NCBI GenBank assembly: GCA_027061805.1 | Contig: JAMOWA010000026.1 | Span: forward strand, 1 to 50,930 | Reading direction: 5' to 3' | Origin: Thermoanaerobaculia bacterium | GTDB taxonomy: Bacteria > Acidobacteriota > Thermoanaerobaculia > Thermoanaerobaculales > Sulfomarinibacteraceae | DNA: 50,930 nt | Notes under the pieces: generated by a model | What the model saw: the letters and a program-made list of their open reading frames with translations, nothing else | The model's database searches: none | What the model was told of the DNA's origin: nothing | Made by a program: the position numbers and the translations under genes | Part shown: piece by piece, positions 12,014-13,635 of the stretch | Layout: each line of letters opens with the position of its first letter | Numbering within the stretch: position 1 is the stretch's first letter

Positions 12014-12832
12014 GTGGAGTCGCTCGACGTCGCACTGGTGGGTCCCGGACGACTGGGTTCGGTTCTCCTCCATCTCCTGCCCGATTCGGGGCACAGGGTG
12101 CGCGCCATCCGGTCCCGCCGGCCCCCGGTGGGCCCGAGGGAGAATGCAGGTCCCGAAAGCCCGGTCAGCGACACCTGGGACGCTCCGGAGCCCTGGCCCC
12201 GCGTGGATCTTGTCCTCGTGACCGTCCCGGACCGCTTCATCGGCTCCGTGGCCCGACGACTCGCCGAGGAGAAGCTTGTCGGGGACGGGACCGTCGTGCT
12301 GCACACCTCCGGCCTCCTGACCGGCACCATCCTCGGGCCCTGTGGGGAGAGCGGCGCGGCGGTGGGCTCCTGGCACCCCCTCCAGAGCTTCGCTCCGAAC
12401 CTCGGAAAGGTGTCTCTCAGCGGCATCTTCTGTGCCATCGAGGGGGACCGGGAGGCCGTGGCCGTGGGAGAGCAGCTCGCCGGGGACCTCGGGATGAAGC
12501 CATGGCACATCGAGCCCGGAGCCAAGGTCCTCTACCACGCAGCCGCCGCCATGGCCGCCAACCTGAGTCACCTCCTGGTGGTGGAGGCCCGCCGCCTGCT
12601 CACCACGACCGGCCTCACCGGAGAGGATGCCGCTGCTGCCCTGGCCCCCCTCATGCATACCAGCCTGGAGTCGGCGCTGCGCGCCTCCGGCCTCGAGGGA
12701 CTCACCGGCCCCATGGCCCGCGGCGACCTCGAGGTCATCGCACGCCACCTGGAGGTGCTGCCGCCCCACCTCGCCGCGGCCTACGAGGCGCTGTGGAGGC
12801 ATGTGTCGGAGACGGTGGTCGGCAGCGGGTAG
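12014..12832 (+). CDS. Rossmann-fold oxidoreductase-like protein with DUF2520 domain
   Basis: 272-aa cytoplasmic protein. The N-terminus is a dinucleotide-binding Rossmann fold (VALVGPGRLGSVLLHLL, GxGxxG type), then VDLVLVTVPDRFIGSVAR and the conserved GSWHPLQSFAP. The C-terminal helical DUF2520 domain contains KVLYHAAAAMAANLSHLL. Relatives resemble 6-phosphogluconate dehydrogenase/ProC-type folds and often sit near pantothenate genes, but no such genes are adjacent here, so the substrate is unknown. Start GTG 12014 places the GxGxxG motif at the usual distance from the N-terminus; no strong SD is visible. It is divergent from hrcA. Confidence 0.75.
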   Translation: MESLDVALVGPGRLGSVLLHLLPDSGHRVRAIRSRRPPVGPRENAGPESPVSDTWDAPEPWPRVDLVLVTVPDRFIGSVARRLAEEKLVGDGTVVLHTSGLLTGTILGPCGESGAAVGSWHPLQSFAPNLGKVSLSGIFCAIEGDREAVAVGEQLAGDLGMKPWHIEPGAKVLYHAAAAMAANLSHLLVVEARRLLTTTGLTGEDAAAALAPLMHTSLESALRASGLEGLTGPMARGDLEVIARHLEVLPPHLAAAYEALWRHVSETVVGSG

Positions 12833-12878
12833 CGGCGGCAGGGATCGGCAGCGGTGGTCGGCAGCGGTGGTCGGCGGT
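12813..12878. repeat. Short direct repeats at the 3' end of the DUF2520 gene
   Basis: The 13-16 nt unit CGGTGGTCGGCAGCGG occurs at 12813 (inside the end of the coding frame) and at 12852, and partially again at 12865. These repeats run straight into the long inverted repeat that starts at 12876. Together they mark the left edge of an 800-bp non-coding, repeat-rich gap. Confidence 0.7.
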
Positions 12879-13017
12879 CACCTCCGGGTCGTTCTGTCAT
12901 GGGAGGCCTAGCTTCCGGGCGCCCCGGTGTCAAGGATGAACTTCCGGCCGCTGCGCGGCCCTTGACACCGGGGCGCCCGGAAGCTGAAGGGCCTCCATGA
13001 ACGACCCGGAGGTGACC
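12876..13017. repeat. 142-bp near-palindrome (large inverted repeat)
   Basis: Left arm 12876-12935 and right arm 12960-13017 are reverse complements with few gaps. The inner 26 bp of each arm (12910-12935 against 12960-12985, beginning AGCTTCCGGGCGCCCCGGTG) match perfectly. The outer 19 bp (GGTCACCTCCGGGTCGTTC) also match perfectly. Only a few extra bases in the left arm and a short mismatch separate the two blocks. The 24-nt centre contains its own small hairpin (GGCCGC TGC GCGGCC). No gene lies inside. It could be a cruciform, a miniature transposable element or a strong transcription barrier. Confidence 0.85.
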
Positions 13018-13048
13018 ATGACCCATGCCCTCATCCCCCACCCACCCG

Positions 13049-13080
13049 GTGAAGAGGTAAAGACGTGAAGAAGTGAAGAC
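13049..13080. repeat. Repeated GTGAAGA heptamers
   Basis: The word GTGAAGA occurs at 13049, 13065 and 13073 within a purine-rich stretch in the non-coding gap. It lies just after the large inverted repeat. No coding function is evident. Confidence 0.6.
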
Positions 13081-13125
13081 GCCCCCCTCCCCTCCGGAGA
13101 AGGGCGCACCCGGCGGCGCGTGCCG

Positions 13126-13181
13126 GGCACGGCGTTTCCCGTGACGCTTCCCGAATCCCAACTCCAGGGAAACGCCGTGCC
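13126..13181. repeat. 15-bp inverted repeat with 26-nt spacer
   Basis: GGCACGGCGTTTCCC (13126-13140) is perfectly inverted at 13167-13181, and the pairing extends by several bases with one mismatch. It is a second independent inverted repeat in the same non-coding gap. No U-tract follows, so it is not a standard terminator. Confidence 0.75.
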
Positions 13182-13411
13182 GGGCTCCGCACGGGAAGAA
13201 CGCGCGGAGAAGTGGCCCGCCATCGTGGGAGGCGGCCCGCCCGCACTCCGGCGAGGCCGAAGCCCATCCCGCCTACGAAGCCGTCCTGCCTCGCCGGAGG
13301 AGGACGGCGGGGCCGTGCGACAGCACGGCCACGGCCGCCGAGGCCCGGAGAAGGGCCGGGGCCGGCGTGCGGAGGGGCGTCCTGACGTCCTAACCTCCTC
13401 ACCCTCCTTCG

Positions 13412-13439
13412 TTTCACGTTTAACGTTTCACGTTTCACG
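13412..13439. repeat. Four tandem heptamers TTTMACG
   Basis: Four contiguous 7-nt units: TTTCACG, TTTAACG, TTTCACG, TTTCACG. This is a compact tandem microsatellite in the non-coding stretch upstream of the MglA-like gene. The remaining part of the 12833-13635 gap holds no gene I can support. Confidence 0.8.
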
Positions 13440-13578
13440 GATGGGCGGGTGGACATCGCACACAGACACGGTCACGGACACCGCCGGGAACGAGGTCTCC
13501 CGGGGTCGGTGGCGCCACCACGATCTGGGAACAGGCCCGGGACGACCGCCGTTTCCGGACCCTCCGGCGGAGCCCCGA

Positions 13579-13613
13579 TTGACCCTTGTGTCCGGGGTGT
13601 GTAAGCTTTACAC
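13579..13613 (+). promoter_or_regulatory. Possible promoter with overlapping palindrome upstream of the MglA-like gene
   Basis: TTGACC at 13579-13584 is followed after 17 nt by TAAGCT, a weak -10. The -10 region lies within a perfect palindrome GTGTAA-GCT-TTACAC (13599-13613). It ends 22 bp before the start codon at 13636. The hexamer fit is modest, so the promoter call is tentative; the palindrome is a direct observation and could be an operator. Confidence 0.4.
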
Positions 13614-13635
13614 GCCAGAGGAGGTTGGGAGCCGG

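Follow-up and report, generated by a model that had tools for sequence, protein, structure and literature searches.

The 142-bp palindrome at positions 12876–13017 of the window (by which we mean the whole 50,930-nt stretch of Thermoanaerobaculia bacterium DNA analysed here) is probably the relic 5′ leader of a mobile unit that resembles the intervening sequences (IVS) of 23S rRNA. The body of this unit is a gene of the PF05635 (IVP) family, and the leader would block translation of the IVP gene until it is opened or cut. In the window the gene itself has been reduced to a short remnant. The features of the palindrome and its immediate surroundings are as follows.

12876–12894, plus strand: left outer arm, GGTCACCTCCGGGTCGTTC; its partner is the ribosome-binding site.
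12910–12935, plus strand: left inner arm; its first base is the A of a conserved TAG foot (12909–12911), and it has the GTCAAGG core at its end.
12936–12959, plus strand: apex, a bulge and a small hairpin, as judged from the fold and the leader alignment.
12960–12985, plus strand: right inner arm, which opens with the conserved CCTTGAC.
12997–12999, plus strand: first in-frame ATG; 50 of the 51 leaders in the alignment have it at the same position.
12999–13017, plus strand: right outer arm, with GGAGG inside (13008–13012).
13018–13068, plus strand: IVP gene remnant, comprising the second ATG, 16 codons (MTHALIPHPPGEEVKT) and a stop.

The palindrome is real. The sequence-only reading had described perfect blocks of 26 and 19 bp with a small central hairpin, and both the arms and the fold were reproduced: the 26-nt inner arms and the 19-nt outer arms each pair without a mismatch, and the predicted fold includes a small apical hairpin. 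The minimum free energy (MFE) of the palindrome as RNA, −124.7 kcal/mol, compares with −62.0 ± 4.2 in 200 dinucleotide shuffles, none of which reaches it (z = −15). Rfam gave no match at the gathering score anywhere in the window. A possible σ70 promoter that would read leftward from the left arm, with TTGAC and TA at a spacing of 17 nt, was dropped because the last base of its −10 box is not conserved.

Further copies, for which the sequence-only reading had proposed to search, turned out to be common. Across both strands of its own assembly (3.10 Mb in 68 contigs, the window being contig C26), 45 matches to the palindrome were listed. They represent at least 24 separate places, a lower bound as 40 of 56 first-look candidates were scored, and equivalent leaders are present in other genomes of the family. 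An assembly artefact is therefore an unlikely source of the palindrome, and a chance origin is ruled out by the genomic copies, the MFE, the family-wide presence and the covariation described below. Class A copies are 141–142 nt long and class B copies 140–149 nt, one of the latter being cut down to 86 nt; class C accounts for two of the 24 places, and several further copies are truncated or interrupted by contig ends. Two class B units lie next to each other on contig C57. No copies of the palindrome were found on plasmids. An exact 22-mer, consisting of the right arm and the ATG, was found in 11 stretches when 84,980 species genomes were searched, and 10 of these come from metagenome-assembled genomes labelled Thermoanaerobaculales, Holophagae or Acidobacteria. 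The eleventh, in Nocardioides (L080), is followed by a different gene (TetR-like by eye) and was taken as chance.

Among the 18 class A and B copies that retain the right arm (ending in CCCGGAGGTGACC directly ahead of ATG), 13 continue into an open frame of 115–121 codons (148 in one case), three have a short frame (the window and the copies on contigs C65 and C59) and two are cut by a contig end. The product of the sister copies matches PF05635 (23S_rRNA_IVP, S23/IVP) with a score over the curated cut-off, and TIGR02436 as well; the window remnant is too short for scoring. The own genome has 25 PF05635 genes, and members were found in 17 of the 20 genomes of the family, with 0–25 genes each. 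The AlphaFold model of a sister-copy protein is a four-helix bundle (pLDDT 94.3) whose best solved matches are the S23 structures 2GSC and 2RLD (E < 0.001). The next matches are Avd proteins of diversity-generating retroelements (DGR), 8UB7 (E 0.04, TM 0.76) and 4DWL, with E of 0.04–0.2 and TM of about 0.7–0.76. PMC10053308 points out the resemblance between PF05635 and Avd.

The earlier statement that the palindrome has no obvious gene inside thus holds for the window copy, which has the short remnant only, but not for the sister copies, where the palindrome leads an IVP gene. The same comparison bears on the idea that the palindrome is a MITE or a terminator-like structure unrelated to any gene: although the window, taken by itself, retains no IVP gene, the sister copies do lead one and the conserved fold holds its ribosome-binding site, which makes this idea hardly credible. 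As judged from the sister copies, the window unit has lost its gene. This may have happened through deletion or, as in the C65 copy the IVP 3′ end reappears about 360 nt past the ATG, through replacement by the neighbouring repeat. By eye, the end of the remnant looks like the 3′ ends of intact sister copies. The window and C59 copies adjoin different genes, and therefore the short form occupies more than one place; the C65 copy ends with its contig inside an array. The intact copies are evidently under purifying selection, because pN/pS is 0.15 within class A (6 genes), 0.20 within class B (7 genes) and 0.21 within class C (6 genes).

The window offers two in-frame start candidates, at 12997 and 13018, 21 nt apart. 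Among the 51 aligned leaders, a Shine-Dalgarno-like 4-mer precedes the first ATG in 40, and GGAG or GAGG precedes the second ATG in all 51; the latter figure carries a start-selection bias, and the motif is not independent evidence because the starts were chosen by a script that favours Shine-Dalgarno sequences. The first ATG is absent in two copies outside the alignment (L045 and L048 of genome G015). Class C leaders have GGTTTCCTCCCGTTCGTTC / GAACGAACGGGAGGAAACC ahead of the ATG, and class D has a start of the first type only, its stem spanning the start codon by eye. Whichever start is used, the predicted ribosome-binding site and start region lie inside the outer stem.

We extracted 74 distinct IVP genes from loci of the family, excluding seven further frames that had no start in range, and 70 of these, with at least 90 nt of upstream sequence, were testable. 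In 52 of the 70, the 22 nt immediately preceding the start can pair with an upstream arm, and no more than 1 in 100 dinucleotide shuffles did equally well. This arm is located 134–155 nt from the start in the passing genes and 86 nt from it in a single deletion variant. The 18 failures comprise eight canonical IVP genes, two genes of class D, two cut by contig ends and six that are divergent or have a doubtful start. The arm sequences vary between genera yet match inside each gene. In an alignment of 51 leaders (the 52 passing ones minus the 86-nt variant and L122, plus the window), 94.1% of the cells are paired and 30 of the 45 pairs have changes on both sides. The covariation score, for a structure derived from the same alignment on which it was scored, is 0.391, compared with 0.116 ± 0.006 in shuffled alignments and at most 0.117 in slid ones. 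The constant parts of the leader are the apical GTCAAGG...CCTTGAC core, the TAG-like foot and the GGAGG end, and the stem between them drifts in pairs; the leader model scores the window at 132.5 bits on the plus strand and 106.3 bits on the minus strand. These comparisons show, at the level of aligned sequences, that the fold has been kept by matched changes on both arms while the sequence drifts. The main technical doubt is that template switching at the DNA level can homogenise the arms of a palindrome and thereby mimic compensatory change.

The palindrome forms part of a larger block. The genes that flank it in the window, for a DUF2520/Rossmann protein on the left and a Ras-like GTPase on the right, are 803 bp apart (12833–13635), in agreement with the gap of about 800 bp and three further repeat types described in the sequence-only reading; three tandem arrays and a second inverted repeat were found. 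The block is made of three dispersed repeats, namely the hairpin with the ORF remnant, a repeat of about 300 bp and a heptamer-bearing repeat of about 100 bp. The features outside the hairpin are listed below.

12813–12875, plus strand: 13-bp tandem array, the left edge of the unit; the array unit varies by copy.
13046–13365, plus strand: second dispersed repeat, of about 300 bp as seen with a query that started at 13046.
13049–13081: 8-bp array within the second dispersed repeat.
13122–13140 and 13167–13185: second inverted repeat, within the second dispersed repeat.
13360–13461, plus strand: third dispersed repeat, about 100 bp, which carries the heptamer array.
13410–13439: 7-bp array (CGTTTCA)n within the third dispersed repeat.

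The 13-bp unit is already recognisable in the last codons of the DUF2520-like gene (12813–12832), whose original C-terminus may thus have given way to the array. Arrays with a 13-bp period and other units are located to the left of other class A copies. Long copies of the second dispersed repeat are present on contigs C65, C15, C43, C24, C34, C63 and others, and the third was found in dozens of 66 listed places; both copy numbers are lower bounds, as 40 of 299 candidates were scored. Several copies of these two repeats are located, by coordinate, near IVP genes.

The block of about 800 bp is, by comparison of gene order, an insertion, because in three relatives (G004, G007 and G013) only 33, 55 and 71 bp, respectively, separate the same two genes. 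The left gene also has strong matches in G008 and G009, but the stretches examined there contained no recognisable start of the GTPase gene. Similarity among class A copies extends from the left 13-bp array to positions +346 to +382 past the second ATG, and to +432 in one pair; beyond this end, some pairs have scattered repeat pieces in common (for example 294 bp in C13 and C59). Target-site duplications, which had been suggested as a check, were not recognised among the copies aligned side by side, in which the 13-bp array forms the left edge and other repeats obscure the right one. The earlier proposal of a miniature mobile element or structured locus is thus supported by dispersed copies, an empty site in three relatives and covariation, although the palindrome is not an element that stands alone.

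Instead of belonging to a mobile unit, the hairpin could be the regulatory element of a vertically inherited and duplicated gene family that spread through recombination between repeats and has no element of its own. Purifying selection on the intact IVP genes and the conserved fold fit such a family, and the tandem class B units on contig C57 fit duplication. However, the number of IVP genes varies widely among the related genomes, class A similarity stops near the end of the gene save for the scattered repeat pieces, the window block was inserted between genes that are adjacent in three relatives, and the gene-less derivatives adjoin different genes. We therefore consider vertical inheritance without an element unlikely.

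Another possibility is that the palindrome acts as DNA, as a REP- or REPIN-like sequence moved by a Y1 transposase of the RAYT or IS200 type, the IVP gene being a mere frequent neighbour. A TAG foot ahead of the inner stem is indeed common among the leaders, a T-A step is found on the minus strand at fixed spacing from the core in 38/51 and 37/51 of them, Y1 transposase genes are present in 16 of the 20 family genomes, and leader-like hairpins are found in some other genomes without an IVP gene nearby. The leader model (R1) matched 11 of 396 genomes of the phylum, with seven candidates scored per genome; the matches are strong in the family of the window, adjoin IVP genes in G022 and are weak elsewhere, and eight loci (L185, L187–L192 and L196) have no IVP gene at hand. 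In five of these loci from other Acidobacteriota (L185, L187, L189, L190 and L192), inspection by eye shows a GTCAAGG/CCTTGAC hairpin, with a TTGAC in the right arm of L185 and L192 that is followed 16–17 nt on by a TAT-like box. The palindromes described here, however, are about 148 nt long and occupy at least 24 places, whereas the literature gives 20–40 bp for REP sequences (PMC3733652) and often more than 100 copies (PMC2817692). In addition, 13 of 18 copies have the palindrome stop where the IVP gene starts, and the numbers of IVP and Y1 genes show no correlation across the 20 family genomes (9 and 0 in G006, 3 and 0 in G018, 0 and 3 in G013, all incomplete genomes). A comparison of 12 Y1 loci with 52 leaders gave only four short matches (15–29 nt, E from 7e-4 to 9e-3). 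Movement of the palindrome by a Y1 transposase is accordingly quite improbable.

For the leader of a mobile IVP unit, which remains our preferred explanation, we infer the regulation and the way of moving as follows. A read-through transcript would form an RNA hairpin of about 145 nt with the ribosome-binding site and the candidate starts in its outer stem, and this hairpin would hold the IVP gene untranslated, by analogy with the 5′ hairpins of several insertion sequences. It could be opened or cut either upon binding of the IVP protein to the conserved apical core, as the analogy with Avd suggests, or by RNase III, as in the 23S IVS. The gene-bearing unit encodes no known transposase (Y1 transposases were searched). 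It would spread by some further step, and gene-less derivatives such as the window copy would be carried along.

IVP genes are widespread beyond the family of the window. PF05635 is present in 146 of 297 Acidobacteriota genomes, and we analysed 29 loci, the best-scoring genes of 30 of these 146 genomes with L268 dropped. The leader test exceeded the shuffled maximum, with shuffles that preserve base composition only, in just one of the 29 (L271). Tandem arrays scoring at least 12 were found upstream of the gene in 19 of the 29 loci and downstream in 11, but in just 7 of 228 control windows placed at distances over 500 bp; periods of 5–14 were tried, and 7, 8 or 14 were found. The arrays on the two sides are inverted relative to each other: 14 of the 29 matched pairs exceed 99% of mismatched pairs. 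Two of the 29 loci, L258 and L261, have identical arrays. Plasmids show a similar arrangement. IVP was matched by 46 plasmid records, and in 5 of 12 loci, picked by hand from the 25 listed (cyanobacteria, Gemmatirosa, Riemerella and Treponema), the inverted arrays exceed 99% of mismatched pairs. In an Anabaena plasmid (L281, 686–1054), cas6 and cas4 flank an IVP gene that is bordered on each side by heptamer arrays in inverted orientation. The array unit, 7–8 bp long, changes from locus to locus around the IVP genes (L249–L278 and L279–L290). In the own genome of the window, contig C56 carries a canonical IVP gene that is flanked on either side by inverted arrays of the CGTTTCA heptamer.

Among 37 leader-type genes of the window's family, by comparison, none has flanking inverted arrays above the 99% level of mismatched controls, and the closed hairpin ahead of the gene looks like a different solution from the flanking arrays. 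Such hairpins are also found in a genome of another Acidobacteriota family (G202), whose IVP genes and hairpins are of other sequence; the hairpins occupy the same place, and their stems end with the ribosome-binding site. Eight places were listed in this genome, and all six hairpins tested exceed 200 of 200 shuffles, which preserve base composition only; of the remaining two, the hairpin of L241 was recognised by viewing and L242 was missed by the search pattern. The loci with hairpins include L238, L239, L240, L243 and L244, and simple tandem arrays lie farther upstream in several. No match to rRNA or any other Rfam family was found in the 30 phylum loci and seven G202 stretches (up to 1.5 kb per side); for the plasmid loci, the rRNA context was judged from annotated neighbours. 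We tentatively suggest that IVP genes located outside rRNA supply the protein component of small mobile elements that form a widespread and so far unrecognised class. These elements would be bounded either by short tandem arrays in inverted orientation or, in the family of the window, by a single covarying RNA leader. The 23S IVS could then be the members inserted in rRNA, and some heptamer arrays known from cyanobacteria and other bacteria could mark the ends of such elements.

The S23/IVP family is known chiefly from the intervening sequences of 23S rRNA and for its relationship to Avd. The leaders of IS10 and IS200 form a 5′ hairpin in which the start region of the gene carried by the element is sequestered. 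Those genes encode transposases, whereas the gene described here encodes a small four-helix protein with no known catalysis, and its regulation is predicted. With REP and REPIN sequences, the palindrome has in common that it is a dispersed extragenic palindrome with a TAG/GTAG-like foot; it differs in size, in copy number, in its link to the IVP start and in having no visible link to Y1 transposases. The likeness to Avd is one of protein fold; according to its title, structure 8UB7 shows Avd within a ribonucleoprotein. The covarying leader and its conserved core, present ahead of many IVP genes, provide a concrete RNA partner for tests of IVP binding and autoregulation.

Short intergenic heptamer arrays have been described in Beggiatoaceae and cyanobacteria (PMC4679880) and in Xanthomonas and Nostoc (PMC4692102); in the available text they have a period of 7, like the arrays around IVP genes, and some of the groups in which they occur also have plasmid IVP genes. 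No IVP link is made in the available text of either paper, where 'intervening', 'S23' and 'four helix' have no occurrences, and among the literature matches listed, which include few subscription journals, there was no description of an IVP leader or of inverted IVP arrays. The inverted arrays around IVP genes in several phyla offer a testable way to connect heptamer repeats with the 23S IVS and with small mobile elements.

A close parallel is the 23S IVS itself. PMC4990558 describes that of Coxiella burnetii as having an S23p ORF, a variable number of upstream heptameric repeats and a 28-bp terminal stem, and as being excised by RNase III; it also discusses the old idea of a mobile element. 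The units described here resemble it in the name of their protein family (S23p; PF05635), in their long stem, in the presence of heptameric repeats and in a suspected mobile past. They differ in being multi-copy and located between protein genes: the window copy lies outside 23S rRNA, between the DUF2520 and Ras-like GTPase genes, in an assembly that contains no 23S rRNA, so that a further copy within rRNA may exist. An ORF-enclosing terminal stem of the IVS type was found in none of the 37 leader-type units above the 99% level of mismatched flanks. The stem of the 23S IVS is terminal and encloses the ORF, whereas here a closed hairpin lies upstream of it.
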